Below, piece by piece: positions 2,010 through 31,204 of a DNA stretch of 64,000 nt. The DNA lies in the NCBI RefSeq assembly GCF_002234675.1, contig NC_019866.2, positions 13,917,261-13,981,260 on the forward strand, in the 5' to 3' direction. Source of the DNA: Oryzias latipes. Its lineage: Eukaryota > Chordata > Actinopteri > Beloniformes > Adrianichthyidae. Positions within the stretch are counted from its first letter, which is position 1. Each line of letters opens with the position of its first letter. The notes beneath the pieces are model-generated. The model saw nothing but the letters and a program-made list of their open reading frames with translations, ran no database searches and was not told the DNA's origin. A program made the position numbers and the translations under genes.

Positions 2010-2427
2010 TTGTTCTTTTAATATTGGCCTCAATGATCAGAACATTGCCTTGCACCTGAATCCCCGTTTTGATGTCTGGGGAGACAAGGACACAATTGTC
2101 CTCAACTCTGTCGAAAACAGCAAGTGGAAGGACGAGGTTCAGCCTGGGGGCTTTTGTTTCTTCAGAGGGGAAAGCTTCAAGGTCTGCAGAAACATTTGTG
2201 TTCCTGTTGTGATATGATTTCTCGACTTCTTCATTGTCATGTGATTAACTTTATGAAAATGTCATTTCTGTCTGTTTCAGATCATCATCAAATTTAAATG
2301 TAAAGGATTTTCGATTACTTTACCGAATGGCTCTAGAATCACTGTCCCCAACTGCATCTATGCAAATAAATACTCCTACTTCCGCTTTGATGGTGATGTT
2401 AGCATTAGCAGCGTTGAGATCCGCTGA
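2010..2427 (+). CDS. Galectin A, exons 3-4 (partial gene)
   Basis: A beta-galactoside-binding lectin of the prototype galectin family, the type that is secreted without a signal peptide and works as a dimer. Two exons are visible, 2010-2181 and 2281-2427, with clean AG/GT borders. Their sizes (172 and 147 bases) match the other copies. Exon 3 carries HLNPRF, VLNS and W..EV and exon 4 ends in SSVEIR-stop. Using full-length numbering from the neighbouring copies, the sugar-contact residues His45, Asn47, Arg49, Asn62, Trp69 and Glu72 are present. The usual Arg74 is Gln (EVQPG), so binding may be altered. Exons 1-2 are not found in the window, so the gene is either cut by the window edge or 5'-truncated; exons 3-4 themselves look intact. 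It converges on galectin B. AATAAA motifs follow the stop within about 50 bp. Confidence 0.88.
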
Positions 2428-5975: not shown

Positions 5976-8900
5976 TTATTTGATCTCAATGCTCGTGATG
6001 CGAGCTTCGTCTTCAAAGCTGAGGGCTGAGTATTTCTCTGCACCCATGCGGTTGGGGAAGAAGATCGTGGATCCATCTGATAAGGTCACCACAAACTCAG
6101 TAGATCGGAATTCAATCCTGATCTAAGAAGAAGGGCGAGGCAGAAAAAGACAAACAAAAATTAAAACAATGTGTTTACATGTCATTTAGTCCAGTGGTCC
6201 CCAACCCCTGGGCCGTGCACCAGTACCGGTCCTTGGGTCATTTGGTACCGGGCCGCACAGAAAGAATAAATAACTTTGATTACTTCTATTTATTGTTATC
6301 TGAATCTGAAAGATTTTTAATTGTGAAAAATTGCCAGATTCCCTGTTACATCCGTCTATGTCACTCTTGACGCAGGCTAAGGGGCTCCTTTCGGTCACGT
6401 GATAGGATACCGCTAAAATAAATCCCAGGATCTAGCAAAATGAGTAAAAAACAAACATCTTTGGAAAGTTTCTTTGCCAAGAGGAAAAGGCCATGAGACA
6501 GAAGAGGAGCCTTCGAACTCCAAAGAAAAAAGCCACATTTGATAGACAGTGCTTCTTTTTTGCACCATGAGTGTGGGAAAGGGAGAGGATGATAACACCT
6601 GTGTGATGTTCAATGTCATGGGTGTCAAACTAATGTTCCATGTACGTTTTGTCATATCTCTGTTCCCCCTTTGTCGTAGCATTGCTACAATAATTGTCTG
6701 CCACATCCTAAAGACTGATCCGTGAAACCTTTGTCTGACGTCATACTGCTCTGTGGTGTTAGAAAGATAGGGGACCACTGTTTTAGACCCATGTTTACAA
6801 AGGATCAGGATGCAGTGGCTCCCACCTTGAACTCCTGCCCTTGTTGGAAAGGAAAGCCTCCATCTCTGACTTCCTCACCCCAGCAGCCTCCTTCATACGA
6901 GTTGCAGACAACTGTGTTTTCATCTCCGTGGGCGTTGAAGCGAGGGTTGAGATGAAAGGCGATGTCCTGCTCGTTGGGGCCGATATTTAAAGCAAAACTA
7001 CAAAGTGAGAAGAAGCACAAACCTTTAGAAAAAAAAGACGTGAATAAAATGATTTGTCTAAATTATTGTCTAAACAACTTAAGACTATGATTTATTCAAG
7101 TCCCACTCCAATCATAGTGATCTATTGTAAAAGCGTTCCCAGTGTCATGTAATTATTATGATTATTTTTAAGCAAATTATTATGTCTGCTCCTGAATCAC
7201 CATGATTTGAATAAAGCAATATTGTAATAAGAAATGCTATTCAAAGCTTAATTTTCTTTATATTCTTTATATACATTTTGAGAAAAAAGCCACAATTACA
7301 TGTCAAAAACAGGTTTTTCATTGGAGTTGGTCTTTCAAGGACAAGGTAAGAAATGGATGCAGACTTTCAGACACACTCTTGTCTGACATTATTACTTACT
7401 TGGTTGCGTCGGGTTTAGCTACTCCAACGACAGTCAGAGTTTGTCCAACTTTGAAGGACATATTTTTAACGATCATCCCCTGGGCAGAAAAAAAGAAATT
7501 ATATCACAACGCTGCAGCTTCAGTCAGAAAATCCTCCTCCCTGCAACTTATAGACCTTCAGTTTCAGCAAAATAAGAGTTTCAATCAAACTCCTATTGAC
7601 CAGCTCTCTTACTGCTCTTACATGATTGTCATGATTGTGTCATCCTAAAAACCCTAAATATTCACCTTATCAATCGTTACTGTACCATACATCTTCAGAT
7701 CCCAATTCGGGGTTGCTGAACCCAGCATCTGTTGGGCTAAAGCGGAGTACACCGGAAACAGGTCTCCAGGATGGTCACAAACTCACACATCCACTCACAA
7801 ATCTACGAAACATGTTTTTTGGCCCAGTTACTACAGAGGAATTCTGGTTTAAAATGACACTTGAATATTCAGCTAAATGGAACAAACTGTGAATCTGAAG
7901 AAGGTTACATTAGATAACAAACTATAGAGTTTTTTTAATAAAAAAGGTTGATCAGCAACAGATATGATACAATTTTCCTCCTCACTCTCGTATTTTACTG
8001 CCTGTGTTGTTGATGGTCACTGCAGTCCATTCATCCAGACCTTATAATTTCTCATTTTCACTTGTTTAACAATAAAAACATGAATAATTTGCGCAGACAT
8101 TTAAGTAAAGCTATTCAACTCATATTTACTGGAAAATGTCAGAATTCCCCAAATTTTTAAATGTCAATCAGCTTCTTGTCCTAAAAAGACAAGGAAGTAT
8201 ATCTTGTGACTTTCACAGAGTGCAGCTGTTGGAGGAGTTAGGGACAGAAACATGCCAGGAATTCTTTTTTGGGGGGGGGGATAACTTTATAAAAAATCAT
8301 ATCTCGTGGTAATAATTATCTGAATGCAAGAAAAAAAAACCTTTTACTGCAGATCAAGACATGGATTCTGTCTAAAACATGAAATAGTGTTGAAATTTAA
8401 AGGCAGAATGACCATGAGAAGGAAGACCCTGCAAAATAAAACCAATTTGGGAGGAGCATGATCAAAAAAATCAAAGTAAAAGAAAATTACTAACTTGTGT
8501 GCGCCAGTTAGGTTTTTATTTGACCTTTTTTTACTTCAAATTTTTTTTTTCTTAATTGTCTCTTTAGGGGCTCCGTACCGAGGCTTGAACTGTGTGAGGT
8601 CACAAGGCCTCAGTGGTTGTTTTCTGTGACTTTAAAAGAAGAAGAAAAGCATCAAAATGATTCCTTTGTTGGTCCCATTAATAGACGGTAATAACGTGAT
8701 TTTAAAAAATCTGAACCCGTGTTGTTACCCAGGCAACCACATATAAAATAATGTTAAAAGTTAGCCTGAAAGCAAACATCAGTTTTTCCTACATTACTTT
8801 TTTTAATGCTGCAGAAAGAAGCTTAGAAGTCACATGAGGCCTTTCCTTTGTTAAGATCTGCTTTCTTGGAGATTCCAGAAACATCCTTAGAAAACTAGAA

Positions 8901-9227
8901 CGGAAAGATTTGTTTGGCAAGAAACGCACATTTGACGGTGAGGGTATATATCTTAATGCGTGGAGATACTAATACTTTGACCATATAAGGAAATCAAACA
9001 AATCCTCCAAACTCACATCAACTTTAAATACTGTTAAATTCAATAATCTGCATTGTTACTATTTCATCTTTACTTACATTATCAGAAAAGAAAGAAAGAA
9101 AAAAAAACTTCCTATAGCAGCTGTCTGTTCTATATTTAAAGCCTGCAGTGAAGCTGACCTTGTCAATAATCAAGTGTAGACAGTAAAATGTAACTTAAGT
9201 ACTAACAGTAATACTTACTTTCATCAT
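5976..9227 (-). CDS. Galectin B (prototype galectin)
   Basis: A 135-residue single-domain galectin expected to bind beta-galactosides in the cytosol or after non-classical secretion. Coding exons on the minus strand are 9227-9219 (Met-Met-Lys), 7479-7400, 6997-6826 and 6122-5976, with GTAAGT or GT donors and pyrimidine-rich acceptors. The phases join without a break and the sizes (9, 80, 172, 147) equal those of copies C and D. The sugar-binding signature is complete: HLNPR (45-49), VCNS (60-63) and W69..E72-V-R74. The protein ends ITSIEIK-stop. It is the most divergent complete copy and probably an older paralogue. Intron 1 holds a foldback-element relic and intron 3 an internally deleted hAT element. 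The start could be either of two adjacent ATGs; the first is used. No TATA box or other regulatory site was pinned down. Confidence 0.92.
6192..6780 (+). mobile_element. Internally deleted hAT element in galectin B intron 3
   Basis: The ends CAGTGGTCCCC (6192) and GGGGACCACTG (6780) are inverted repeats. The flanking 8-mers ATTTAGTC and TTTTAGAC are an imperfect 8-bp target duplication, as hAT elements make. The text just inside the left end, with paired GTACCGG words and a GGGCCG core, is typical of a fish hAT family. At 6438 a frame begins MSKKQTSLESFFAKRKRP and stops at once. That resembles the N-terminus of ZBED-like hAT transposases, so this is a deletion derivative that cannot move itself. 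Confidence 0.75.
7690..7810 (-). repeat. SINE-like relic
   Basis: Words such as GGCTAAAGCGGAGTACAC, CAGGTCTCCAGGATGGTCAC and a run of CACTCACA resemble the reversed 3' half of the SINE family seen at 1.4 and 4.1 kb. Weak support. Confidence 0.3.
8490..8577. mobile_element. Solo end of the foldback family
   Basis: Contains TGTGCGCCAGTTAG, a T-rich tract, then TTTAGGGGCTCCGTA ending at 8577. This is the same order as the right end of the 769-1350 element. Only one arm remains, inside galectin B intron 1. Confidence 0.65.
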
Positions 9228-12611: not shown

Positions 12612-12794
12612 AAAAAGTCCACTAAGCTAAATCAGGGTCCAGCTATAACACTTGGTAAGGACAGCAGCGTGGCACAAACAATGGTTGATTGAGTGAAATT
12701 TGAGTCGTGTGTGGCATCCAGGAAGTGTGGTTACAACTCTGTCTCCCACTCCGGTTACCATCGGAAACCATCTTCAGAGTTCTGACTTCTGACA
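12612..12794 (-). mobile_element. Solo LTR fossil, partial
   Basis: A shortened copy of the same long terminal repeat as 24517-24820, at the equivalent place in the C block. The insertion therefore predates the C/D duplication. Old and incomplete; the retroelement family is not determined (Gypsy or ERV-like). Confidence 0.5.
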
Positions 12795-13241
12795 AAAAGA
12801 GCAAGGTGCAGACTCATATTGTTTATGGCCCAGATAGAAAAACATACTTTGTCCTTTATAACACAGAAGTCACTTAAGTAAAAAGAAATAAAAATAAAGC
12901 CGTTTTAATAGATAACTCAAAGAAATCATTTGGATTCAAGGTTATAAATCAAATAGAAAACTAGACTTTTAAAGATTTGTTGAAGGTGCCAACATTTTTA
13001 ATTGTTTAAAAAGATTTAACAGGTAAAAACATCATTGAAACCTAATACATCCCATACTTTCAAAGAAAAAAATGATTGACATTTTTGGGTTTCTGATAAG
13101 TTTATCCACTGAAATCTTTCATTGATGGTGGTATCTGCACACACCTAACTACTTTCATCATGAGATCAAAGGGAAAACACAGGTTTTTATTTTTCATTTT
13201 GTGTAAAAGCAGCAATGCTGGATGCAGATTTGTGATGAAGC

Positions 13242-14960
13242 TCAGTAAATCTCAAAGCTTTTGATGCGAACATCACCATCAAAGCGAAAGAAGGAGTATT
13301 TATCTGAATTGAAGCGGTTGGGGAAACAGATCTTAGAGCCATTCGGTAAGGTCACCACAAATCCTGTAGAGGTCAATTTAATGATGATCTGTAACGGACA
13401 GAAATGTTCATAAAGTTAATCACACGAGGATGAGGAAGCTGAGAAACCAGGAAGATAAATGTTTCTGCAGACCTTGAAGTTCTCTCCTCTGAAGAAACAA
13501 AAGCCCCCAGGCCGAACCTCCTGCTGCCACATGCCTTGTTGCTGAGAGTTACAGACGATCGTGTCTCTTTCTCCAAAGGCATCAAAACGGGGATTCAGGT
13601 GCAAGGCAATGTTCTGATCATTGTTACCAATATTCACAGAGAAACTTGAAAGGGGAAAAAAAGAAAGTTTTTTTCAACATTGATTGGCACTTTTGTGCTC
13701 TGAGATTCTACATAGAGATGAGCATTTAATAGAGTTTCTAGTTATAAATAAGTGATCATTTTTAGTTTAATCTGTTTGTCTGCGTGAATTTTTATTAGAT
13801 TGAGTTTAAAGTATAGTCTGTTATTTTCCGTTGGACAACAGAGGATGTACATTGCATATATTTACAATAAAAAAAGGAAAAAAGGCTTTTCTTAACATAT
13901 GGTATCAATTGTAAATCAAGCTATTAGAGCATTATCTTTCATGCAAATTAATGATAAACATTAATATTAAAGCAGGTTTTCCAACACGCTGCTGTCAGTT
14001 TCTCAGAAAATGTTTAGCATTTCATAGAAAGGATTTTTATGAGTCCTACATGGGAAAGAGAACTAACTGACAGAATTTAATTTAGAGAACCTGCATAGAC
14101 GACAATTCATGCTAATATGCATTAAACCACTTCTGCTCTGAAATTACCTTAATTTAGCATACTTGGAAGCAAATACATAAGTGTTTTTGTTTTCCAGAGC
14201 AGGAAACAAATCCAGACATCAAGGGGTTAAAGATTTCTAGAAATCCACCCTAAGTTTTAATTCTGCTGTAATCAGAAAAGAAACTATTAGGAGTGTATTT
14301 GCAGCACAAGCTGGAATGAAAGTGAAACGAAATGAAGACAGCATCCTGCCTGAACCTGTGAACTGGAGAACTGTGCAGGTCAAAATAGTAAGAAATATGT
14401 TTTTTTGAAACTTGACACACTTACTTGGCAGCATCAGGTTTAATAGTTCCAACAATGGCCATGGATTGTCCAAGTCTAAAGGACATATTCTGAATCGCCA
14501 TACTCTGCACAAACAGAAAGAAAACAGAATTTCAATATTATTGAGATCAAAAGACCCAGAGTGAATATTTATACATCACCATAAAAAGCTGGCAAAGTTT
14601 TACTCAAAACATAAATTTAATTTGTTTTCTTTATCATACAATAAATGTGCACTAAACCTTGATGATATGATTGATTTCCATTGCAAAGAAACATATGCTC
14701 CACCGCAGAGGAAAACTTCAAGCTGCAGGTTGTTCAGTGCTGCAGCTAACCAACACTTAAAATTGACGCCTTTAATTCAAAATAAACCCCCCAAAAATAA
14801 TAGCAATCAGCTGGAAACTTTTAAAAGATCAATATTAAATTATGAATTAATCTTCAAAATACCCTAAAATTGTGTTTCTGAGCTCGAAAAGTAAAGTATT
14901 TAACATTAAATTAAGTATAAGTAAGAATTATTTTCCAAAACATGTACTTACAGGGGCCAT
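13242..14960 (-). CDS. Galectin C (prototype galectin, congerin-like)
   Basis: A complete 135-residue beta-galactoside-binding lectin without signal peptide or membrane segment. Coding exons on the minus strand are 14960-14952 (Met-Ala-Pro), 14504-14425, 13644-13473 and 13388-13242. All borders are GT/AG and the 408 coding bases join in frame. The start context AAAAGATGG is good. Sugar-binding residues are all present: His45, Asn47, Arg49 (HLNPR), Val60/Asn62 (VCNS), Trp69, Glu72, Arg74. The C-terminus is RIKSFEIY. Length and exon plan match vertebrate galectin-1/2 and eel congerins. Copy D, about 12 kb away, differs at 14 of 135 residues. Both copies share 5' flank up to about 270 bp upstream, so their basal expression is probably similar. 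Which named vertebrate paralogue it corresponds to cannot be settled by eye. Confidence 0.94.
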
Positions 14961-16149
14961 CTTTTCCAGGAAATGTTGCTGGTCAAGTGAAAACGAAAGG
15001 AATGAAGCTCTGCTCTGCAGTGGTGGAGGTTGTCTTCAACAGGAACCTTTAGTTTTTCTCTCTAGGTTTTTCACAGTAAAGGCAAGACCTATAGTTTCAA
15101 AGGTGTGACTGCTAAATTATTATCCAATGGTTCTTCTTTGGGTCGCCTTTTATGGTCCGGTGTTTTCTTTTTCTTTTTTACAGCACATTTTGATTGGCTG
15201 CAGATCATTGTTTCCCATAGTTAATAATGATCCCTGAATATTTTCACTATTTTAAAATGAACTGGTCAATTTTAATAATTTTCTTTCTCTTACATGCAAC
15301 AGCCTCAGGTTACACTTCTCCTTCCCCTGCATGGTTCCTGCTCATAATTTAATTAGCCAGCAGTGACAAGCAAGATGAGAGGAGTTTGGCCACAAACTGC
15401 TGAAAGACTGTTTTTTCTTTTGTTTTGTATGTCTTTTATACATCTTTATTACTAATCATTGCTTTTTTTATTGATCCAAAATGCAATTAACTCAATATTT
15501 TATCTTTTTCTCTTTTTTTTTACAATCAAAACATATGAATATGCTCCAAAACAAACCCCAACCTCACCACACTCCTACAGATGTAACATAACATAATAAA
15601 TATCTCTTATATCCTTTTTTATCAATGGTGTAACTTATTTTCCTTTCTATACAACCAATGAAATTAAACTACAGCACCAACTAACACAACTGATAACAAT
15701 GTCTCTAAAAAATTATGTGTATCTATGTAGCACCTTTAAACACCAAACAAATAAACAAATGCTTCCTAATAAAAGCACAAAAAATCAAACACAAAATGTA
15801 AAACCCAAATTAGAAATTGCAATTTTAAAAAGATATGTTTTTAGCAGCTTTTTAACAGAAATCACCAATTAAACTCTTCTGTGGATGAAACAAAGAACTC
15901 CAGAACAATGAAGCCACTTCTGCAAAGTCTCTGTCACCTTTAGTTTTAAACAAGTTCTCTGAGCATCCACCATACATTGGTCATATGTACTCAGAGACCT
16001 GCTCAAAGTACACAATTGTAAAAGGTCTTTTATATAGACAGCTGAGCTATATAAAACAATGTTTTTGTATCACTTAGACAGGGAGAACCATATCAACTGG
16101 ATTAGTAACAGGGTGGCATGTTTAGGTTTAATTACGTCAAAAACGTACA

Positions 16150-16460
16150 ACGTGAAGCTGTTCATCACATTTTTGACCTAAACATGTAAACATTTGCTTG
16201 GCTCTGCTGTGAGGAAACAATATTTCATTATCTCTTCATACCAGGAGCCAGCCTGGCCATTGGAACATCGCCACCATGCCCACCCAGACTGGGATAGCAA
16301 CGGGGTCCACTTCACAGCCGTGAGGCTGCAAAGTTAAACTCCAGCTGCCCCAGCAAGGGTGACAACTGCAGCAACAACCACCGACCAAGCCGTGCACGCC
16401 CTGGCAGAAAAGATCCCCACAAGAAACACTGGCTCCGGCAGGCTGTTCCATGAAAAACAT
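16150..16460 (-). repeat. Dispersed repeat, reversed copy of 22880-23150
   Basis: Read on the minus strand it shares blocks such as CAGTGTTTCTTGTGGGGATC, GGCTTGGTCGGTGGTTGTTG and CCTCACGGCTGTGAAGTGGA with 22.9-23.15 kb. The pair proves a dispersed family. The class is probably a LINE 3' region, because the fuller copy carries a LINE-like C-terminal motif. Confidence 0.65.
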
Positions 16461-16492
16461 AGTTTAGCCATTGACTAGCAGCTTGCAGTTCA

Positions 16493-16945
16493 AGTGGTTT
16501 AGTTTTCCAGAATGTCAGTCAAAAATGTAAGGTCATATTCACCATATTCATATTCATCATATTCAGCAGACATCTCCTCCAATAGCACCTTGAAAATCCT
16601 TTGCTGTTTTGCTTTGCAGCTGAGGTTGTTCATGACTTTCACAATAGGAGTCAATATGTGTTCAGAGCCAATCACTTTTGCACATAAGGCCTACTGGTGA
16701 ATGATGCAGTGGTAGCAGACATTTTGGAAAGTCTGGGTCAGCTTTACAGTGAGTGATGAAACCTGTTTGTCTGTTGATCATAGCAGGAGCCCTGTCTGCA
16801 GTCACTGCTACCAGCTTTTCTAATGGTACCTTTTTCTGAACAAAAACTCCTTCACCGTGTTATACATTTCAACTCCTCTTGTTGTTGTCTGTTAGGGCAG
16901 TTGTATCAGGAGTTCTTCTCTTGTGGAGAAATCTTCAAACCTCAT
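16493..16945 (-). pseudogene. hAT transposase relic (GTF2IRD2/ZBED-like)
   Basis: Minus-strand frames read MRFEDFSTREELLIQLP, then VPLEKLVAVTADRAPAM and TGFITHCKADPDFPK. These are typical of the middle of hAT-family transposases of the kind domesticated in GTF2IRD2 and ZBED/SCAND3 genes, where the text is usually LVGVTTDGAPAM. In-frame stops and frame changes interrupt it (for example a stop just after LIQLP and another after CKSDWL), so it is a dead plain DNA-transposon fragment. Neither end of the element is recognised. Confidence 0.75.
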
Positions 16946-17079
16946 GTTAATAAAAACCAAGAGCTGCGCTGTAATACTGCTTTCCACAGACTCATCACAC
17001 TGGATGCTAAACCACCTGCACTTACCAGCCTTGCTCTCAGCCTTGTATTAATCCTCGCTCTCTGCTACAGGATTTTCAT

Positions 17080-17303
17080 CATCTCATGAGTGACGTCAGC
17101 GCGCCCTGCCATTCTGCTGCTCAGAAGAAGCCAGAAGACTCCACGGCTCACAAACCGCACTAAGCCCTCTAGCCACGCCACCAGCTGTCCTCAAGTCTGG
17201 ACCTCCTCCAACTATACCACAACCATCCCTGGAGAAACAATAAATCCTTTTCTCGTCTTCTGGGTTCCAGCGTCTGGGTCCTCACGCTAAGGGAGTCATG
17301 ACA
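17080..17303 (+). mobile_element. LTR-like fragment
   Basis: AATAAA near 17238 is followed about 60 bp later by an end reading TCATGACA. This matches the layout of the clearer solo LTRs in this window but with different sequence. The left border is uncertain and the class not determined. Treated as an old fossil. Confidence 0.3.
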
Positions 17304-18195
17304 GACAGTTTACAACCCCCCCCCCCCCCCCCACAAACAGGCTGCTGTCAGGTTAACAGTAGCTTGCAGCTCCAGAATGCAGAAAGAGGGACATGAAACG
17401 GCTCGAGCAGGACGTTGCTCGCGGGGCGGTCGCCCGTGCCAGGTGGTCGCACGTGGTCGGACCTGCTAAATACTACTTGTAGCTTAAATTAATAATTATC
17501 TCTGGCAATCTCTGGCTCAGGAATACTGCAGTAACTTCACTGCTGTCTCAGGAAGAGCGCAATTAATGTAAATATTACAACTACATACTTTAATTTGTTT
17601 TTATATTTCACATTTTAGATTTAAATTTTATTCTACTTCCTTGTCTAATATATAAAAAAAAACATTGAACAGCATTACAATTTTCATTGTGCAACAATGA
17701 TAAAATGGATTTCTCATTCTGTGGAATCTGATCTCTCTCTGATGTTTCTGTTTCCCGTTTTCAACTATTTTTTTCTGTCTGAATTAAAACGTTCTTAAGT
17801 TCACATCATTACAAATTATCCTCGATGTATCCAAAAACTAACAAGGCTTTCAGTTTTCTTTTTTTTTTCTTTTTACTGTTTGTGTTTTCTCTTTTTTCCT
17901 CGTTAGTCACTTGTTTCAAATTCCAGTTCAAGGCAGTTGCCCTGTCCCTGAGGAGAGTTGCAGGACTACTTCCTGTCATGTTTCCTGTACTTGGAGAGGT
18001 TTCATCAGGACGGCTCCTCTTTGCCCTGCTCCGTTTGGGAGAAGCACTTGTCATAATATCCCGAACACCTAAAAAAAAAAAACAGAATAGAGCGCTAATA
18101 TTAAGAATAAAATCATTAGAAAGTCAAATGATCTGTCCATGCACCAAGTCGTTTTACTTAATAAATCCTATAATAAGCTCTCAAGATCTCTAAAC

Positions 18196-18985
18196 AAGGA
18201 GTTAATACAGGATGCATGTTAAACAGCTCAACTATAAGTAATTTTTGCTAGTTCTAAGAAAATGGTTCGAGTTTTTATGTACTTAATTGTAGTTTCTTTT
18301 GATAAAAGTGACTAAAATTTATACAAATAACTTTAAAATTGAACTAAAAATCACAGTGCAATTTAAGTGTTTTAGCCTCAAATCGTGTTTTTTTTTATCA
18401 TCAAGTATATCGAGCAAAAAGACTTGCATATCTTAATAATAATTTCCTTGTTTCTAGATCTTTTTAACGAGACCAAAACAAAATTCTTAATAGTGCTGAG
18501 TTTGTGAAACGTTTGGAAACGTGAACGGCAAAGGAAAGTTTAAAAACCCGAAACAAATATCTTGAATGTCAACAGTATAAACAAGGTTTGACATTTTTGC
18601 AAGGATAATTTTACAGGCTGCAGAGACTATGGCCCTATTTCACTGCATGGTTCAAGTGACCCAATTCCCATTTTTTTCATCTCACGTGGCACAGATTGGA
18701 TATGACCGGTGAACGTGGGAGTATATAAGCTCCCTTCTTTCCACTCCTTTTTAGGCAATAAATCATGCTCTACATGTCTTTAGTTAATGGTCATCATATT
18801 TAATTATGCAAATGTGACTTAAGTGTGTCTTTATTTATTTATTTATTTATTCAGGGTTTTTTTTTTAAATCTATGCTTTTCATCATTTCTGTAATGACTT
18901 TAATAAACCTGTGTGAATTCTTTATTGTTTTGACTACAATGCTAGAAATCAATTAATCAAATCAATTAAAAAGAAATGTGCTTAC
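18196..18985. other. Spacer between galectin C block and orphan exon
   Basis: A/T-rich, including an ATTTATTT run near 18,830. It should be intron 1 of the lost duplicate, but I see no similarity to intron 1 of C or D. Confidence 0.35.
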
Positions 18986-18994
18986 AGGGACCAT
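18986..18994 (-). pseudogene. Orphan galectin exon 1 (third duplicate)
   Basis: ATGGTCCCT followed by GTAAGC reads Met-Val-Pro plus an intact donor. The upstream bases, minus strand, keep the same 5' leader as copies C and D (CAGCAACATTTCC before the ATG and a CTGCAGAGCG region). No galectin exons 2-4 are found between here and galectin C, so this is a first exon stranded when the body of a third duplicate was lost. Its own 5' flank continues at 19.0-19.15 kb, 20.27-20.37 kb and about 22.37-22.43 kb, separated by inserted elements. Confidence 0.7.
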
Positions 18995-19151
18995 TTTCGC
19001 ATGGAAATGTTGCTGGTCAAGTGAAAACGGAAGGAATGACGCTCTGCAGTGGTGGAGGTTCTCTTCAACAGGCAGCTTTTTTTTCACAAATAAAGGCAAG
19101 ATTTTTTAAGATTTATTAAGATTATTGTTTCAAAAGTATAATTACTAAATT

Positions 19152-20260
19152 ACGACGGAGTATTAGGGCCACCAAAAAAAAAAAAATTAGAGCCAACAAA
19201 AAAAAAAAAAAGTAAAATTATGAGATTTTATCTCGTAAATTTAGGAGATAAAAACTCGTAAATTTACGACTTTTTATCTCATAAATTTACGACTTAAAAT
19301 CTCATAAATTTACGAGAAAAAAGTCGTAGATTAAGGAAAAAACACTGAAGTTGTCCGTTTATCGGAACGTAGCTTGAAGATTAAGTATGTGGAGCCTTTT
19401 GTGAAGCTTCATTTCCGGATTATTATAGGTTTAAAACAAAGAGATTCTGAACCTTTTGGCGACTCAAAATCAGATCATTTTCCGTGTAGCAGTCTTTCCG
19501 GGGTTCAGTGTCAGTAAAGCGGAGTTTAATATATAAAATAAGGAGCTCAGAGACACGTTTGGGTGTAGACAATCGCTGCAGCCTTTATTCTCCTTTTCAT
19601 TCACATTTTCTGAAGTTCATTTGTCTCATTACGTCATGAACCTGTCATCCGAACACCAATGCGGAAGTAAACAGTGTTACAAACGCCCCCTCCTGCAGAT
19701 GAAATGTCCCGTTTCAGCATAAAACAATAAAGAGGAATGAAAATAGTGTTTTATATTAGCTTTGGAACGTTGAAAATGCCAAAAAAAAGTGCTCCTCCTT
19801 TTGTTTGACGGAAGCGTCACACAGACGTAGAGTCTTGTCTTTGGTGGAGGAAGAAAGGATTCAAGCGAACAGCTGCAGGGACACCGACGACGGCTTCATC
19901 GGGCTGCAGAGATCCTGCAAACCAACCATCAATAAATAAAACTTTAATGAATCGTAAATCAAACAAATGACCTTCCAGACATTTGGAACGTTATCAATAA
20001 ACATTCAGCTCACCTGTTCAACAAAGTTTAGTCGGTCTGCTCTGCTGCTGCACGGCGTTCACCTGCTGCTCTGCATGCTCTCTTCCACTGTAATCTCCTA
20101 AAATTACGACTTTTTTTCTCCTAAATTTACGACTTTTTATCTCCTAAATTTACGACTTTTTATCTCCTAAATTTACGAGATAAAATCTCGTAATTTTACT
20201 ATTATTTTTTTTGGTGGCTCTAATTTTTTATTTTTTTTGGTGGCCCTAATACTCCGTCGT
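19152..20260. mobile_element. Non-autonomous DNA element with 8-bp duplication and long inverted arms
   Basis: The left end ACGACGGAGTATTAGGGCC and its exact mirror at 20242-20260 bound the element. ACTAAATT is repeated exactly at 19144-19151 and 20261-20268. The empty site is visible in copy C (GCTAAATTATTATCC), confirming the insertion. The arms extend about 170 bp through A-rich tracts and repeated TCGTAAATTTACGA-type palindromes. The 8-bp duplication favours a hAT-like mechanism. The roughly 770-bp interior has no transposase frame. Confidence 0.85.
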
Positions 20261-20376
20261 ACTAAATTACTATCCAATGGTTCCTCTTTATATCACAGTT
20301 CACCTGTTGTGGTCTGGTGATATTTTTCTTCTTTTTTCTTTTTTACAGCACATTCTGATTCGCTCCCAGATTATTG

Positions 20377-20770
20377 TGTCAGAAGTCAGAACTCTGTCTC
20401 CCCCTCTGGTCACCGGCGGGAGCAGTCTCCAGAGTACTGAAGTCACTTCATCTCCCAACAACCCCCAGTGCACACTTCCCGGATGCCACACACCTGACTC
20501 TCATTCATTTATTCATTAACTACAGTATACTTTGCGAAGTATTGCTTGTGCCTTTCTGCCATCATTACAGAGCAGTGTATTTGGACCTGACCCTGTTCTG
20601 ACCCTGTTTGCCTGCCGCTTGCCCCAACTCTCATGTGGATTTTGACTACACCCGTCTCTCCTCTGGTGATCTCATGCCTGCTATTGACCCTGGTTCAGCT
20701 TTGTGAACTTTTAGCTGATCGAATAACCTGCTGCATTTGGATCCAGCCGTCTACCTGTTCTTGTGATACA
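20377..20770 (+). mobile_element. Solo LTR fossil
   Basis: A 394-bp repeat beginning TGTCAGAAGTCAG and ending TTGTGATACA, with an AATAAC/AATAAA-type site and CTGCTGCATTTGGATCCAGC just before the end. It matches 24517-24820 in reverse orientation. No internal region or second LTR lies next to it, so it is a solo LTR of an unassigned retroelement family. Moderately old, judged from divergence between copies. Confidence 0.6.
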
Positions 20771-20784
20771 TTGTCTCCTGTAGT

Positions 20785-22200
20785 TAAAATTATTATTATT
20801 ATTATTATTTTTAAATTTGTCTTGTCCAACAGCTGGGCAGACAGATGAGAGCTGAAGGCCTCCAGTGTTGGACATATTTTACATTAACAACAGGGGTTAT
20901 TAATCTTCAGACAAACCAGAGGTATGTCTGAATAAACCCCTTTTGTAATCGAGGCCAAACTTTATTCACTTTAATCATATTTGAAAATCTTTTGTGTTGG
21001 ACCGGACGGAAAAGGAAAGAAGGGAAGAAGAGAGAGGGATGTTAGACAGAAGGGGGGATAGGAGGGGGATCATAGGAAGGAGGGGGGGGGGGGGGGGGTA
21101 AAACCATGAAGCAGCATAAAGCAACAAGCTACTGGATGTTTATCATTACGGTAAGGTTCAGATGTAATACAAATCTCAAAGGGCGGGGCCTGTCCACACA
21201 CACACTCAAATGTTATAAACACACCTGCTAGCTGCAAAAATGTCCACTTGTCAACATGTACACAATACAGATAGTGTTCACACATGCATACTTATTCCTT
21301 CAAACCAACTAGTGTGAAATATTTCATTGAATCAATCACGCAAAATATTAGTGCAAAGGTGAGCTAAAACCTGTGCTCAATTGAATGTTTATGTTCCTCT
21401 AAAATGGATGGTGGGATGTGAAAAGAAGGAGGGAGAGTGCCCAGCCATCCCCACACCAAGACCCCCGCGGCAGCTGCAGCGGCAGCCAGAACCCCCCAAC
21501 GCCTCACGGCAGCAGGCAGAGAACAACCGCCCCCCGGGGCGATCACATCCGCCACCCAGGCCAGGGCCAGCAGGACCGCCGCAAGTCCCTCAGAGCCAGA
21601 GAGCAGCGAGGCATGGGGGGAAATAGTGCTGCCAGAGCCCAACCAGGAGAGCAGCCCCCTCGCCGCGCCAGGAAGGCCCAACGCCGGGCCACCATTGCCA
21701 ATGGTCCTGTACCCCCTACCAGGGATGGGGTAGGGGACAGATGGTCCAAGGTCCCACCTTCCTTACGAAATGCGAGTGTGTTTGTGAGGGTGTGTGTTCA
21801 TGTATGTGTGTTTATGTTGTAATGTATATTTTTAGGGGTGAATGGTGTTTGTACTAAGGGGGTGCAGTTAAAATTAGCGGGTAGAGCACTGAGGGGACAT
21901 CTCCTGATTACTCACAGTGATGTCCCATCAACCTCCCCACCAAGGGGCCCTAAATGTCTGAGGTGCGGTTAAAATTGGCAGGTAGGGTGCTAAGCGGACA
22001 TCTGCTGCTTGCTGGCAGTGATGTCCAAGCACCCCCCCCTACCAAGGGGGGGGGGGTCTAAGGTGTAAATAAAACCGAGAGAAGGGGGGCCCATTCCATA
22101 CGGCAACCATGGGAGGGGGACCACTGCCAAGTAACCCCCCCCCCCCAAGGTGCATCACAGGCTAAACCCCCCACACCCTCACCCTAATTTGAGATTATAT
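20785..22200 (-). mobile_element. 5'-truncated L1 3' UTR
   Basis: On the minus strand it ends in an (AAT)n tail (20789-20810). Going 5', it carries the GC-rich region that follows the L1 ORF2 end in the copy at 27.9-30.5 kb. Shared blocks include GGTATGTCTGAATAAACCCC, TTTGAAAATCTTTTGTGTTG and GCAGTGATGTCC-like text. It lies in inverted orientation to that copy. The long open frames across its GC-rich part are on the wrong strand and of low complexity. Confidence 0.7.
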
Positions 22201-22369
22201 GAGAAAGGGGATAAATTTGGGACAGCTGGTCAAACAGCTGTCCCTCATCCCCCCCCAGCATAGGTCCCAGGGTCCCCTAAAAATTAATTTTAAAATTAAG
22301 TTAAAATTAATTTTAATATGCATATTTATATTGCAAAACTATGAGGCCTCTTACAAAACCCTTGCAACC

Positions 22370-22435
22370 ACTGACTCAGGAAGAGAGCAATAAATGTAAA
22401 TATTATAACTACATATTCTCATTCTGTTAACTCTA
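22370..22435 (-). repeat. Fragment of galectin upstream duplicate
   Basis: CAGGAAGAGAGCAATAAATG and ATATTATAACTACATATTCT match the upstream text of galectins C (about 17.55 kb) and D (about 27.33 kb). This marks the far side of the third, broken duplicate. Confidence 0.55.
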
Positions 22436-22539
22436 CATCTGTCATTTTCAGATGGTTGCTAATGCTAGAAATTCAATGTCAGGTGAACATTGACTGTCTA
22501 CAGTCAGTGTTGGTACACCAGCTGTTGTAGACGTTTACA

Positions 22540-23345
22540 CAGAGACTGCCTCTAACTTGGCTCTGGCTCAAGACCCACCTTTTTAATTTCGCTGATTAGT
22601 TGATCTTATCTGCTTATTTATTCTATTAGTTTTAATGCATTTTATTTTATGCATTTAATTTTATTTTTTGCTCCTAATTTTATTTTCAATTTTATGTTTT
22701 TAAATACGTCTTGTTTATGTCTATGAAGACTCTCATTCATCCAGGTTGATTCCATCATAGTAGTAGGTTTAGGGGCTGTCATCTGGACTTAGTTTTTAAA
22801 GTTAGAAGACGTTTCACCTCTGGACCCTTAACCCCCCTCTGGTCACCTCTGGACCCTTAACCTACATCTTGTTTTTTTAACTTTAGCATCTTATTTTGAT
22901 TTTAGCCCCAGTGTTTCTTGTGGGGATCCTTTCTACCAGGGTTTGCCGGCTTGGTCGGTGGTTGTTGCCACGGTTGTCGCCCTTGGTGGGGGCGGCTGGA
23001 GTTCAACATTGCAGCCTCACGGCTGTGAAGTGGACCCCTTTGCTGTCCCGGTCTGGGTGGGCACTGTGGCTATGTTCCTACGGCCAAGCTGGCTCCTGGA
23101 ATGAAGAGATTCCCAAATACTGTTTCTTCACAGCAGAGCAAAGTTAAGCCTTGAGTTTCTTTTAGAAGTTACTTTTAGAAGTATTTATTGTGTTTGGGGT
23201 TGTGGGTCATATGTGTTAACAAAGGGGAGTGGGAAGGATGAGGGGTAGGTTGGGTTTTTTTTGTAATATTGTGTATTTTTTTTATGTTAAAGCGCTTCGA
23301 GTTGCGCAAGGTATGAGATGCGCTTTTTTAAAAAGAAAGTTTGAT
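22540..23345 (+). mobile_element. LINE 3' end (L2/Rex-like)
   Basis: The frame WLWLKTHLFNFAD-stop at about 22559-22605 carries the LKTHLF motif that closes many fish LINE reverse-transcriptase proteins. It is followed by a long 3' region with the GC-rich block repeated at 16.15-16.46 kb and a terminal AAGCGCTTCGAGTTGCGC motif near 23,291. The clade is not determined. Confidence 0.45.
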
Positions 23346-24314
23346 TTAATTTGAAAATCTTGAAACAAGGAGTTTCACACAAGAATTCAAAAGGTTAACA
23401 GAATTACTTCAAATTGACACAGTAATGACTCTATAGCATAGTATTTATCAGAGGAAACACTGGAAATTTCTGTCCTGGTTGATGCTGCGGCACTTGGACA
23501 AGTTTTCTCCTAGTTAAAGCCAACCACCTGCCTTTTAGACCCAATTCCTAAATCTCTCTTAAAAACATTTTATGACTTCTTTGACTTTGAGCTATGAATT
23601 TGTTTAGTTCAGAGGTTTTATTTTACCCAACACAAAAATGGCATGGGCTAAATTATGGGGTCAACTTAACAAAAATGTAACTGAGAGAATCAATAACAAG
23701 AGCTCAAACCAAAACTGAATCAACAACAGGAAACATTAGGGAGAATTTATACTGGCTGATCAAACCAATGTGAAAATAGGGAGGGAATCACAAATACAAA
23801 ACATTCAAGAAAATTAAATATTAACTAAAGTAGTAAATTACTAATGCTATATTTAAAAAAAATATATAAACAATAGTCGAACAGAAGAATAAACGTTGTC
23901 TTCCCCTTCCAGCTTCTCCAGATGGAAGTGTTCAGGAAGTTGTCCATGTTCCTCCGTCTGCCCCAGCATCAGGCCTCAGACTGAACCTAAAAGAATGGAT
24001 TTACGGTACTCAAAACAGAACAAAATGAACTAAGTGTGGACAAGTCATGAAGTCAATTTTGTTATGTAATGTGTGAATTAAAATAAATGGTTTATTCAAC
24101 AACAAAGAAATATAACAAATTAACTAAATTTAACTGTGCGGCAGTGGGTTCTGCCCTCACACCATCCAACGTGAAGCAAAGGATGGTTGCTTCCACGAAG
24201 TGCGTTAATTTCTGATAATGCATACTTCGAAGGCCATTACCCGCTTATACCATGGTCGCTTTAAAATAAGTAAATATTCAATCAGTTTTTAGTCCTTAAT
24301 TCTTCTTATAAACA
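23346..24314. other. Spacer, small MITE-like piece near 24.2 kb
   Basis: Mostly featureless A/T-rich sequence. Around 24195-24255, GAAGTGCGTTAATTTCTGAT and CATTACCCGCTTATACCATG resemble words of a common fish inverted-repeat transposon. No borders found. Confidence 0.3.
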
Positions 24315-24356
24315 TGCAGTAAAATAACCCAATTTGACAAAAACAGAATCACAACT

Positions 24357-24412
24357 TGTAAATGAGGTACAGGTTCGGAAACCTAAGTTTCCGACCCTGT
24401 ACCTCATTTACA
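24357..24412. repeat. 26-bp inverted repeat with 4-base loop
   Basis: Arms 24357-24382 and 24387-24412 pair at 25 of 26 positions (TGTAAATGAGGTACAGG at the outer side) around the loop CTAA. In the C block only the right-hand arm is seen (near 12,500), so the perfect hairpin is specific to the D block. Confidence 0.9.
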
Positions 24413-24516
24413 GGAAGTTGAAACCAACAAATTTTCTTTATTTTAACGCCTTTTCTTCAGCACAAAGCAGGCTGAAAGGAAACCTCTGGGCTGCAAACAA
24501 AACAAAAAAACATAAG

Positions 24517-24820
24517 TGTCACAAGAACAGGCAGACGGCTGGATCCAAATGCAGCAGGTTTATTAGCTCAGCTAAAAGTCCACAAAGCTAAATCAAGGTC
24601 AAGCAGGCAGGAACAGGTCCGGCTATAACAAATGGTAATGACAGCAGAGTGGCACAAACAAGACTTCACAATGAGCTCAGCTCAGTGCAGAGCTTCAGTA
24701 TGCTGTGGTTGATTGAGTGAAATGAGAGTCGGGTGTGTGGCATCCAGGAAGTGTGGTTGGAACTCTGGAGATGGTTACCGATGGTAACGAAAGGGGGAGA
24801 CAGAGTTCTGACTTCTGACA
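24517..24820 (-). mobile_element. Solo LTR fossil downstream of galectin D
   Basis: A 304-bp repeat that on the minus strand starts TGTCAGAAGTCAG and ends TTGTGACA, with AATAAACCTGCTGC about 35 bp before the end. The flanks ATAAG and AAAAG may be a decayed 5-bp duplication. Gypsy or ERV-like, class undetermined; present before the C/D duplication. Confidence 0.65.
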
Positions 24821-25258
24821 AAAAGAGTAAGGCAAACTCATATTTGTTTATGGCCCAGATAGAAACTGTACTTTGTCCCTTATAACACCGGACTCACTTA
24901 AGGTAAAAAAAAAGAAGCAGTTTTAATAGACAACTCAAAGAAATCATTTGAATTTAAGGTAATAAATCAAATAGAAAACTAGACTTTAAAAGATTTGTTG
25001 AAGGTGCCTACATTTTTAATTGTTTAAAAAGATTTTACAGGTAAAAAGATCATTAAATCCCAAGACACCCCATACCTTCAAACAAAAAAAAAAATTGACA
25101 TTTTTGGGTTTCTGATAAGTTTATCTACTGAAATCTTTCATTGATGGTGGTATCTGCACGCACCAAACTACTTTTATCATAAGATCAAAGGGAACACAGG
25201 TTTTTATTTTTCATTTTGTGTAAAAGCAGCAATGCTGGATGCAGATTTGGGATGAAGC

Positions 25259-26992
25259 TCAGTAAATCTCAAAGCTTTTGATGCGAACATCACCATTAAA
25301 GGAGAAGTAGGAGTATTTATCAGAATAGAAGCGGTTGGGGAAACAGATCTGAGAGCCATTCGGTAAGGTCACCACAAATCCTGTAGAGGTCAATTTAATG
25401 ATGATCTGTAACAGACAGAAATGTTTTTAAAGTTAATCACACGAGGATGAGGAAGCTGATAAATCAGGAACACAAATGTTTCTGCAGACCTTGAAGTTCT
25501 CTCCTCTGAGGAAACAAAAGCCCCCAGGCCGAACCTCCTGCTGCCACCTGCCTTGTTGCTGAGAGTTACAGACGATCGTGTCTCTGTCTCCAAAGGCATT
25601 AAAACGGGGATTCAGGTGCAAGGCAATGTTCTGATCATTGTAACCAATATTCACAGAGAAACTAGAAAGGAAAAAAATAGTTTCTTTCAATATTGATTGT
25701 CACTTTTTTGCTCCTAGAGTATACATAAAGGTGAGCATTCAATAGAGTTTCTAGTTATAAATCAGTGATCATTTTAGTTTAATCTGTTTGTCTGAGTGGA
25801 TTATTATTAGATTGACTTTAATGCATAGTCTGTTGTACATTGCATATTACAATAACAAAAGTAAATAGCTTTTTCTTAACTTATGCTAAATCAATTGTAA
25901 ATCAGACTAGTAGAGTGTTATCTTTTATGCAAATTAATGATAAGCATTAATATTAAAGGAGGTTTTCATACATGCTGCTGTCAGTTTCTGAGAAAATGTT
26001 TAGCATTTCATAAAAGGATTTTTATGAGTCCTTCATGGGAAAGAGAACTAATTTAACCTGCATAGACGCCAATTCATGCTAATATGTATTAAACAACTTC
26101 CACTCTTAAATTACCTCAATTTAGCATCTACTTGGAAGCAAATGCATAAGTGTTTTTGTTTTTTCAGAGCTGGAAACAAATCCAGACATCAAGGGTTAAA
26201 GATTTCTAGAAATCCCCCTTGGATAAGTTTCGATTCTGCTGTAATCAGAAAAGAAACTATTAGGAGTGTATTTGCAGCACAAGCTGGAAAGAAAGTGAAA
26301 CGAAATGAAGACAGCATCCTGCCTTCATCTTTGATCTAGAAAACTGTGCATCTGTTACCCCTCTCTCATGCAACAGAGGAAGTGAAAATAAACTTCAATA
26401 ACAACAGAGGTCAAAATAGTAAGAAAAATGTTTTTTTGAAACTTGACACACTTACTTGGCAGCATTGGGTTTAACAGTTCCAACAATGGCCATGGATTGT
26501 CCAAGTCTAAAGGACATATTCTGAATCACCATATTCTGCAACAAACAGAAAGAAAACAGAATTTCAATATTATTGAGATCAAAAGACCCAGAATTAATAT
26601 TAATATATCTCCATAAAAAGCTGGCAAGTTTTACTCAAAACATAAATTTAATTTGTTTTATTTATCATACAATAAATGTGCACTAAAACTTGATAATATG
26701 ATTGATTTCCATTGCAAAGAAACATATGCTCCACCGCAGAGGGAAAACTTCAAGCTGCAGGTTGTTCGGTGCTGCAGCTAACCAACACTTAAAATTGACG
26801 CCTTTAATTCAAAATAAACCACCCAAAAATAATAGCAATCAGCTGGAAACTTTAAAAAGATCAATATTAAATTATGAATTTATCTTCAAAATACCCTAAA
26901 ATTGTGTTTCTGAGCTCGAAAACTACAATATTTAACTTTAAATTAAGTATAAGTAAGAATTTTTTTCCAAAACATGTACTTACAGGGGCCAT
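25259..26992 (-). CDS. Galectin D (prototype galectin, congerin-like)
   Basis: A complete 135-residue lectin. Coding exons on the minus strand are 26992-26984 (Met-Ala-Pro), 26535-26456, 25661-25490 and 25405-25259, with GT/AG borders identical in place to copy C. The signature residues are intact (HLNPR, VCNS, W69..E72-V-R74). Differences from C are S4N, A6V, I24V, D27N, N37Y, D51N, E55D, M68R, F81L, K106Q, N114Y, F120Y, R122S and D124N. Several lie next to the sugar pocket or on likely surface strands. Only three silent changes accompany them, against 15 replacement base changes. It is the copy nearest gtpbp1. The upstream flank is shared with C for about 0.9 kb and then cut by an L1 fragment. 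Confidence 0.94.
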
Positions 26993-27899
26993 CTTTTCCA
27001 GGAAATGTTGCTGGTCAAGTGAAAACGAAAGGAATGAAGCTCTGCTCTGCAGTGGTGGAGGTTGTCTTCAACAGGAACCTTTTGTTTTCTGCTCTAGGTT
27101 TTTCACAGTAAAGGCAAGACCTATAGTTTCAAAGGTGTGATTGCAAAATTATTATCCAATGATTCTTCTTTAGGTCGCCTTTATGTTCACCTTTTATGGT
27201 CTTGTGTTTTTTTTCTTTTTTACAGCACATTCTTATTGGCTGCAGACCATTGTTTGCGGTAGTTAATAATTATCTCTGGCAATATCTTGCTCAGGAAGAC
27301 TGCAGTAACTTCACTGCTGTCTCAGGAAGAGCGCAATTAATGTAAATATTACGACTACATATTTTAGTTTGTTTTTATATTTCACATTTTATATTTAAAT
27401 TTTATTCTGTTTTATTTAAAAAAAATGTTGAACAGCATTACAATTTTCATTGTGCAACAATGATAATAAAAGGATTTCTGATTCTGAGGAATCTGATCTC
27501 TCTCTGATGTTTCTGTTTCTCGTTTTCAACTATTATGTTGATTTCTGTCTGAATTAAAATGTTCTTAAGTTCACATCATTACAAATTATCCTTGATGTAT
27601 CCAAAAACTAACAAGGCTTTCAGTTTTCTTTTTTTTTCTTTTTACTGTTTGTGTTGCAGGACTACTTCCTGTCATGTTTCCTGTATTTGGAGAGGTTTCA
27701 TCAGGACGGCTCCTCTTCGTCCTGCTCCGTTTGGGAGAAGCACTTTCCCATTAAATCCTGAACACCTAAAAAAAGACAAAACAGAATAGAGCGCTAATAT
27801 TAAAAATAAAATCATTAGAAAGTCAAATGATCTGTCCATGCACCAAGTAGTTTTTACTTAATAAATCTTATAATAAGCTCTCAAAATCTCAAAATCTTA

Positions 27900-30530
27900 C
27901 CCAAAGTTAATTATGTCTTCTCAATGATTCCCACACAACTGCCACTAAAATAGTTCAAAACATTAGACTCATCTATATCAAGCTTTTTATGGAGCGATAA
28001 ACCTTCAAGAATTAGTCTAAAAACTTTAAAATCTGCAAAAAGCTATGGAGGCTTAGAATTACCTAACTTCCACAAGTACTTTCTTGCAAAGAGATTACAT
28101 TACATCTTAAGCTGGTTAAAAAATAACCCAGAAACCAACTCATGGTTAGACTTGGAACAGGCGTTATGTGGAAAGATCAACCTGTCAGATCTACCATTTA
28201 TTAGCCAAACAGTTAAAAACAGGATTGTTTTCAAAGTATTAATATAAACGCTACTTTAATAGCCTGGTGGGGATTTCTCAAAATATCAAAATCATCAATT
28301 CAACCGTGCAAAATGGAACAACCCGGACATCCTTATAAACAAAAAAATGATACACTTCCCAGCTTGCCAAGCAGGGGGTGTAACACTACTAGAGCATTTA
28401 CTTATTGACCGAAGATTCATAACACCCTGGGAACTTCAAGACAAACATGGAATAAATAACTTCTTGGAAAATCAGCAACTTAAATCTATTATTACAAAAA
28501 AGTTTAAATACAAAGACAACAATTTAAAGCCACCAGAAGTATTTACCTCTCTGATTAATTTCTCAATGGATAAAACTCTCTCCAAAATATACAAACTCTT
28601 ATGCAACCTAGATAATAATATTTCACTTCCGATAACAAAATGGGATGCAGATTTGAGCATCAGCACAGATGAAAATGTCTGGTCAGAAATGTGTCTAAAC
28701 ATCTTCAAGCTGACAAAAAGTCCAAACTTACAGCTAATCCAATTCAAAACTCTTCACAGAATTTACTACACTGGACAGAGGATGTCCAAGATGGGTCTCA
28801 GTAACTCAGACCTTAGTGAGCACTGTGATAGTAATCTAACCGGCAATTACATGCATGCACTCTGGTTCTGCACGCCTGTCCAGGCTCTCTGGCAGCAGAT
28901 CATATAAGCTTGAAAAAAATGTCAGCTGCACCTTAGACACATTTATGGCGCCTTGGTGGGGAGGGTGATGGGACATCACTGTGAGTAATCAGGAGATGTC
29001 CTCTCAGTGCCCTACCCGCCAATTTTAACTGCACCCCCTTAGTACACGCACCCTTTACTCCTCAAAATATACACTCCAACACACATATATGCACACACAC
29101 ACCCTCACAAACACACACACACGTATTTCGCAAGAAAGGTGTCTACCTTGGAGCATCTGTCCCCTACCCCATCCCTGGTAGGGGGTACTGGGCCCTTGGC
29201 AACGGCGGCTGTGTTCCCTGGGTGCTGGCTTCCTGGGCCCGGCAGTCCTCTCTCCACGCAGGGAGAGGGATCCCTGAGCTTTCTGGCAAGGCCAGGAGTC
29301 TGGGATCACATCACACCTGAGCCGGGGTTGTCCGTGTCCCTGTGGTGTGGGTTTTGGTCCTGGCACCTGGGTTCCGGGCCTCGCCAAATTTCCAACTGTG
29401 GCTGAGCCTGGTCGGGCCATGTTTACAACACCTCTTGTGCACCCCCTTCTCTCCTGGGTGCCCTCCTCCTGGGCAGGGACGGCTGGCCCCTGCCTTGCTC
29501 CTTCCTGGACCAACCGTGGGCCGGGTGGGTGGCTGCCTGGAGCACGGAGCGGGTCTCCCTTGGGGGGTACTGGCTCGTACCTGGGGTTGGGGCGGGGGGA
29601 TGCCCAGAACTCCAGGGAAGGTGATGAGGTGCTCGTCCGAGGTTGTGGGCGCTCCTCTGGGACGCCTTGCGTTGGGCCCTCCCGGTGCGGCGGCGGAGGG
29701 CTGCTTTCATGGTTGGTTGGAGCTGCGCTCTCTGTCCCCCCATGCCTCCCTGCTCTTTGGCACTGGGGGCCCCCGTGGCGGTCCTGCTGGCCCTGGCCTG
29801 GGTGGTGGATGTGGTCGCCCGGGGGGTAGTTGTTCTCTAACTGCTGCCGTGCGGGCGTTGGGGGGTTCTGGTTGCGGCGGGATCTTGGTATGGGGATGGC
29901 TGGGCACTCTCCCTTCTTCTTTTCACATTCCATCATCCATTTTAGAAGAACATAAACACTCACTAAAGCACAGGTGTTAGCTCACCTTTACATAAATAGT
30001 TTGCGTGATTGAATGAAATATATCACACTAGTTGGTTTGAGGGCATAAGTATGCGTGTGTGAATATTGTGTGTGAATATTAAATGTTGTGTACATGTTGA
30101 CATGGGAATGTTTTTTGGAGCCAACCGGTATGTTATAACATCTGAGTGTGTGTTTGGACAGGCCCCGCCCTTATAGACGTGTAAAACATCTGAACCTCAC
30201 TGTAATGAGTATAACCATCCAGAAACTTGTTGCTTAATGCTGCTTCATGCCCCCCCCCATAATCACCTTCCTATCCCCCACCTCTCTAACGTCCCTCTCT
30301 CTTCTTCCCTCCTTTCCTTTTCCGTCTGATCCAACACAGAAGATTTTCAAATATGATTAAAATGAATAAAGTTTGGTCTCGATTACAAAAGGGCTTTATT
30401 CAGACATACCTCTGGTTTGTCAGAAGATTTATAACCTCTGTTGTTAAAATAAAATATGTCCAACACAAGAGGTCTTCAGCCCAGATCTGTTTGCCCAGCT
30501 GTTGGACAGGACAAGTTAATAAACATTTAT
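27900..30530 (+). mobile_element. 5'-truncated L1 (Tx1/L1-type LINE): ORF2 C-terminus plus 3' UTR
   Basis: The frame from 27954 reads FKTLDSSISSFLW, then SYGGLELPNFHKYFLAKRLH. A later frame (28347-28907) carries QLIQFKTLHRIYYTGQRM and YMHALWFCTPVQALW. These are the post-reverse-transcriptase and zinc-knuckle-like C-terminal parts of vertebrate L1 ORF2. Stops and a frame change near 28240 show it is dead. A roughly 1.6-kb GC-rich 3' UTR follows (28908-30520), ending in an AATAAACATTT tail. The reverse transcriptase core and everything 5' of it are absent. Confidence 0.85.
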
Positions 30531-31204
30531 TATAATCACATTTGGTGAGTGTTAAAGCGCTGTCCAGCGGTCATTGGGGGTACTTCACAAATAAAGGAAA
30601 ATTGAAACAATGTTGAGCATTTTATTTCTGAAAACTTTTTTTTGTATTATTATTAATTTTATTATTCTTTTGTTATTTTTTATCAGAATATTAAAGAGTA
30701 TATATCTTTTAAAATACTTTGCTGCCTAAAACTACTAGCAAGTGGAAACAAACCAAAATATTGTCTTTCAGCTTATTTTATGGGTTGTGTTGTTTTTACA
30801 TAATCACTCACTGTTGCAGTGTGATTGCGTGTCACTATGCTGGCTTAACCAAACATCAACTACGCCCTCAGGACTATAAACAAAGTGGCTTTGAATGATC
30901 CTATTGGTGCGGAAAAAAGAGGAAATTCGATGCTTTACGCCTTCTTTGCTTAAACTTAAAGAGGCCGTGGAGAAATTATTTATAAATGTTTAAAATACAA
31001 AAAAGTACAATCTTCTAAAGTAAACCATAGTAATGCAGCTGTAATAACTGCGCTGCTGGTGTAGTGGAGAGTAGTTAACTCTCGCTAGCAACGTTAGTTT
31101 TGCTGCTGGTCCAGAACAGCGCGCGTGTCCGTGTTTGGCTGTCGCGATCACAACAATCTGCAGAGAGACACGCGTAGAATTTAGTGCTACAAGTTGGCAT
31201 CAAA
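30531..31204 (+). promoter_or_regulatory. gtpbp1 upstream region and 5' UTR
   Basis: The stretch turns from A/T-rich to more GC and CpG-containing near 31.05-31.2 kb (for example GAACAGCGCGCGTGTCCG), as expected of a CpG-type promoter and leader directly before the gtpbp1 ATG. No TATA box is evident and no start site can be fixed by eye. Confidence 0.4.

Follow-up and report, generated by a model that had tools for sequence, protein, structure and literature searches.

Replacement-rich divergence of two young galectin duplicates in a medaka lectin gene cluster, probably shaped by relaxed constraint and local gene conversion

We analyzed a window of 64,000 nucleotides from medaka, Oryzias latipes (C8:13917261-13981260), which carries galectins C and D, two young gene duplicates that differ mostly by amino acid replacements. 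Each gene has four coding exons of 9, 80, 172, and 147 bp on the minus strand, forming a coding sequence of 408 bp that is open in both; both reading frames and every GT/AG site are intact. In C, the coding part of exon 1 (MAP; followed by a GT donor and identical to that of D) lies at 14952..14960, exon 2 at 14425..14504, exon 3, with the core sugar-contact positions, at 13473..13644, and exon 4 with the stop codon at 13242..13388. The corresponding exons of D lie at 26984..26992 (again MAP), 26456..26535, 25490..25661 (core sugar-contact positions), and 25259..25405 (with the stop codon). Self-comparison aligned the C copy of the duplicated block (12682..15244, minus strand) with the D copy (24706..27288, minus strand); more matches extend to 12434 and, past a 2.2-kb insertion, at 17489-18194 on the C side, and from 24310 and to 27894 on the D side.

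Both predicted proteins match PF00337 (galactoside-binding lectin domain) over residues 9-133 of 135, with 98.0 bits for C and 100.9 bits for D at a cut-off of 22.1, and give near-full-length matches to galectin-1 chains in the PDB and to 6e20_A, labeled simply "Galectin" (E value of 3.7e-43). Galectin exons 2-4 occur at ten loci between C8:13775576 and 13943796, six of them upstream of the window (E, F, G, H, I, and J) and four within it (A, B, C, and D). These loci came from a Pfam family search of the genome, which gave at least 35 matches, and from sixteen genome stretches besides the window; four weak hits covering part of exon 4 are left out of the count. Trees of the exons and of intron 3 supported the grouping of C with D (72 and 94, respectively), of E with F (99 and 96), and of G through J (99 and 92). 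The acceptor before exon 3 of C reads AAG (13645-13647), where the other nine copies carry TAG or CAG; the AAG site may lower the splicing efficiency of C.

Between C and D, 18 of the 408 coding bases are different. All 18 fall within the 399 bp of exons 2-4, where 15 are replacements in 14 codons and 3 are silent, exactly as a first-pass annotation of this DNA had counted. The replacements are S4N, A6V, I24V, D27N, N37Y, D51N, E55D, M68R, F81L, K106Q, N114Y, F120Y, R122S (two base changes in one codon), and D124N; the silent differences lie in codons 26, 115, and 121. All five differences in exon 3 are replacements. The annotation had offered this count as a signal, and the count itself is right, but exon 3 holds only ~35 silent sites, and the eight core sugar-contact residues (H45, N47, R49, V60, N62, W69, E72, and R74) are kept in both proteins. 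We take these eight positions to be those that make the core contacts in galectin-1, and they were mapped by alignment to it. Among the C/D changes, M68R lies beside Trp69, and the galectin-1 alignment pairs E55D with residue 54, a ligand contact, and A6V with residue 5, at the dimer edge. Codons replaced between C and D also tend to be variable across A, E, F, H, and I (9 of 14, compared with 53 of 132 overall; P = 0.08), a tendency that is stronger in exons 3-4 (8 of 10, compared with 49 of 105; P = 0.042). At position 74, E and F have Phe and A has Gln instead of the signature's core Arg. C and D most likely still encode dimeric lectins that bind beta-galactosides and differ slightly at their surfaces.

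Accelerated lectin and venom genes are marked by coding sequence that diverges faster than the noncoding sequence around it. The C/D block has 197 differences over 2,496 aligned sites, and here the coding part diverged more slowly (18/408) than the noncoding part (179/2,088; P = 0.003). The final 96 bases of the alignment, in the 3′ flank, are poorly aligned (28 differences); with these removed, the noncoding count is 151/1,992, and coding sequence is still the slower (P = 0.025). By part, the untrimmed divergence is 19/282 in the 5′ region, 17/446 in intron 1, 71/727 in intron 2, 7/84 in intron 3 (the same count as the annotation's), and 65/549 in the 3′ flank. Divergence is 115/1,264 (0.091) over introns 2 and 3 plus the trimmed 3′ flank and 13/319 over exons 3-4 (P = 0.0026 for the contrast). 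At replacement sites, the divergence of C and D (dN) is 0.050. This amounts to 0.50 of the intron 2 value (P = 0.009) and to 0.53 of the value for introns 2-3 plus the trimmed flank (P = 0.015); for silent sites (dS), the fraction of the latter value is 0.38. Divergence of introns 2-3, part of a check that the first-pass annotation had suggested for its reading of accelerated evolution, came out against that reading.

Nei-Gojobori (NG86) counting, with the stop codon excluded, assigns the pair 310 replacement sites, 86 silent sites, and a dS of 0.036, giving a dN/dS ratio (omega) of 1.40. The ratio is high because silent changes are few, not because replacements are many. A count of 15 replacements to 3 silent changes is no excess of replacements over the available sites (Fisher's exact test, P = 0.77 two-sided and 0.43 one-sided). 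A pairwise codon likelihood model gave a maximum likelihood omega of 1.72, which does not differ from 1 (P = 0.39), and its profile excludes values of ≤0.5 and ≥8. The codon likelihood code was written for this analysis and set against NG86, not PAML; for C/D, the two methods point the same way and neither reaches significance. The probability of at least 15 replacements among 18 differences is 0.006 at an omega of 0.3, 0.13 at 0.6, 0.27 at 0.78, and 0.43 at 1. Strong conservation (omega of 0.3) is therefore rejected for C and D, as the annotation had argued, while the data are compatible with anything between mild constraint and strong selection; with only 18 differences, the power of these tests is low.

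Codon models were then fitted across the cluster; the site and branch-site models used fixed branch lengths that could change only by a single common scale factor. A single ratio for the whole cluster was 0.617. With C and D as foreground, a two-ratio model gave 1.58 for the pair and 0.575 for the rest, and the foreground value did not differ from 1 (P = 0.46); taken singly, C gave 1.47 and D gave 2.28 (P = 0.26 and 0.17, respectively, against the one-ratio model). The branch leading to B is slower, at 0.34, than the rest, at 0.78 (twice the log-likelihood difference [2dL], 5.98), and 0.78 does not differ from 1 (P = 0.20). Without B, the cluster omega is 0.71, model M1a places 35% of codons at an omega of 0.03 and 65% at 1, and the M1a/M2a and M7/M8 comparisons are not significant (P = 0.17 and 0.16, respectively). 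Branch-site model A likewise detected no positive selection, with C and D as foreground (2dL of 0, P = 0.5), with the two together or singly (P of 0.48 to 0.50), or on their common branch (P = 0.35). The codon-model and branch-site tests that the annotation had named as a check thus gave no support, on the cluster paralogues, for selection on C or D. Two further young pairs show conservation, with NG86 ratios of 0.22 for E/F and 0.27 for H/I and likelihood estimates below 1 (P = 0.044 and 0.014, respectively); C/D therefore stands out from these pairs, though not above neutrality. C and D are significantly apart neither from the cluster regime nor from neutrality.

Divergence between C and D is uneven along the block. 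The stretch at 14372..15042 (minus strand), which spans exon 1, intron 1, and exon 2 to just past its end, has 23 differences in 670 sites (0.034), compared with 146 in 1,730 (0.084) elsewhere (P = 0.004 from 1,000 permutations); on a coarser grid, the stretch was 14582-15042 (P = 0.008). A run of 120 identical bases lies at 14931-15050 (P = 0.007). Intron 1 is slower between E and H too (21/450, or 0.047, compared with 48/458, or 0.105, in intron 2), and the similarity at 14372..15042 reflects either a conversion tract or constraint on intron 1.

Mosaic patterns are also found in neighboring copies. At sites of exon 3, H and I share the state of C and D against E and F 15 times and that of E and F against C and D 3 times; in intron 2, the counts are 7 and 85 (Fisher's exact test, P = 1e-10). 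Exon 3 thus seems to have a history different from that of its introns, as in a conversion-like mosaic that carries the C/D type in H and I. An approximately unbiased test on exon 3 alone did not reject the grouping of E and F with H and I (P = 0.14 with outgroup A and 0.11 with outgroup B), so the case for an exon 3 mosaic rests on the contrast in site patterns. Between E and H, exon 3 differs at 31/172 sites and introns 2-3 at 57/557, a nearly twofold difference shared by replacement and silent sites. Between I and J, exons differ at 9/399 sites and introns 2 and 3 plus the last 60 bases of intron 1 at 1/629 (P = 0.0012), a post hoc contrast that weakens as more noncoding sequence is included (P = 0.0012, 0.013, and 0.09, the last with 27/2,348 when upstream sequence and the 3′ flank are added). 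Eight of these nine coding differences lie in exons 2-3, and the close clustering of changes within exon 2 hints at a microconversion.

Duplicated fish galectins with many replacements have a known precedent. Congerins I and II of the conger eel are, like C and D, duplicated prototype galectins whose differences are mainly replacements, and a review gives a dN/dS of 2.6 for them (PMC3269628); their functional divergence is treated in PMC2843614, and fish prototype galectins in PMC12116657. Unlike in the congerins, the excess of the C/D ratio over 1 is nonsignificant in every test of it (P = 0.77, 0.39, 0.46, and 0.5), and introns 2-3 and the 3′ flank outpace the replacement sites; neither a strand swap nor a new binding site, both congerin features, is established for the predicted C and D proteins. 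C and D share with vertebrate galectin-1 a four-exon gene, the prototype form, and the eight core residues, and differ in the many local copies and in the contrast between the cluster omega of 0.78 and that of the B branch. They also resemble sauropsid gal-1a and gal-1b, a duplicated galectin-1 with one copy changing faster; in PMC4224342, gal-1b is reported to show a branch-site signal of positive selection, which C and D do not, and medaka is credited with four gal-1 homologues, compared with the ten loci here. No published analysis of this ten-locus cluster was found in the literature searched, which subscription papers largely escaped, and a search on galectin, gene conversion, and fish gave no title bearing on C and D among the matches listed.

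We consider birth-and-death evolution of lectin genes, with relaxed constraint and local gene conversion, the best reading of these data and a probable one. C and D are two intact genes, tandem copies of a prototype lectin resembling galectin-1, and belong to a cluster with ten or more loci; the fit to this cluster leaves about a third of codons nearly fixed and the rest changing at about the neutral rate. Replacements would build up at roughly half to two thirds of the rate of the noncoding sequence nearby, which corresponds to relaxed purifying selection, and the apparent ratio above 1 would come from a silent count (3) that is low by chance and perhaps lowered by conversion. Conversion among cluster members would also shuffle exon-sized tracts and blur dN/dS over joined exons. 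Several observations weigh against this interpretation. The point estimates of omega for C/D exceed 1; the ratio on C and D is above that of the rest at P = 0.094 against the one-ratio model; dN is not below the divergence of intron 1, the only part slower than dN (ratio of 1.27, P = 0.58), and is 0.64 of that of all trimmed noncoding sequence only at P = 0.10; dS is low relative to introns 2-3 and the trimmed flank only at P = 0.077; and the tests compared medaka paralogues of the cluster with one another. The M8/M8a comparison for the cluster is nominally positive as well (P = 0.029, uncorrected), with the top posteriors in a class with an omega of ~3 falling on codons 64 (0.91) and 68 (0.77).

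The omega values of C and D and this nominal site class, together with a change at codon 68 beside Trp69, would fit a congerin-like episode, in which positive selection after duplication drove C and D apart at surface or loop residues for different glycans. We regard this as unlikely, since no C/D test is significant against an omega of 1, the M1a/M2a and M7/M8 comparisons are not significant, replacement sites diverge less than intron 2 and less than introns 2-3 with the flank, and the core contacts are unchanged; the annotation's own caution, that introns exceed the silent rate and that small numbers, relaxed constraint, or conversion could account for the pattern, was borne out. Conversion, either of C with D or involving a third copy, could instead have wiped out silent differences in part of the gene and left the ratio as a low-dS artifact. 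The low-divergence stretch, the identical run, and the exon 3 mosaic in neighboring copies make this a possibility of some substance, but one we do not favor: no exon beyond exons 1-2 lies in the stretch, silent differences are scarce in exons 3-4 too (2 at ~68 sites), where the introns are not low, intron 1 is slower in E/H too, which is compatible with constraint, and conversion lowers dN and dS alike. That one copy is a young pseudogene drifting without constraint is improbable; dN close to dS, the AAG acceptor of C, and the in-frame stop in exon 2 of cluster copy G would fit it, but frames and GT/AG sites are intact in both genes, core residues are kept, and coding divergence is below noncoding divergence in the trimmed alignment.

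Within the window, galectin A (2010..2427, plus strand) has exons 3 and 4 only, with just short scrambled matches to the 5′ part near 638-732; galectin B (5976..9227, minus strand) has four exons and is the more conserved copy; and a relic at 18976..19085 (minus strand), with 84% identity to C and D, resembles exon 1 and the 5′ untranslated region of another galectin copy. Upstream, G/H and I/J form inverted pairs (C8:13857059-13885778) in which G/I and H/J are ~99.7% identical over 2,965 bases, a very recent segmental duplication. A PDB match names GTP-binding protein 1 adjoining the cluster, and an open reading frame (ORF) with a TBC domain lies at 43387-43872; among stop-to-stop ORFs in two upstream stretches of the cluster, none names an upstream neighbor. 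Inverted repeat copies at 20795-22047 and 28928-30536 (81 to 85% identical) are likely an interspersed element, and a 214-codon ORF beside the second copy (28263-28907) has no Pfam match.

More speculatively, and at long odds in our view, the cluster may form a lectin repertoire whose binding-rim loops (codons ~51-56, 64-70, and 120-124) were diversified by selection and exon-3-sized conversion, with C/D as one young pair and with E/F (Phe74) and A (Gln74) shifted in specificity. A striking 15:3 ratio of replacement to silent changes in young duplicates need not imply positive selection, and noncoding divergence and conversion need to be checked before selection is inferred from duplicate counts. 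With a larger galectin cluster and its exon-level mosaicism mapped, the real question is whether the loop changes alter glycan binding.

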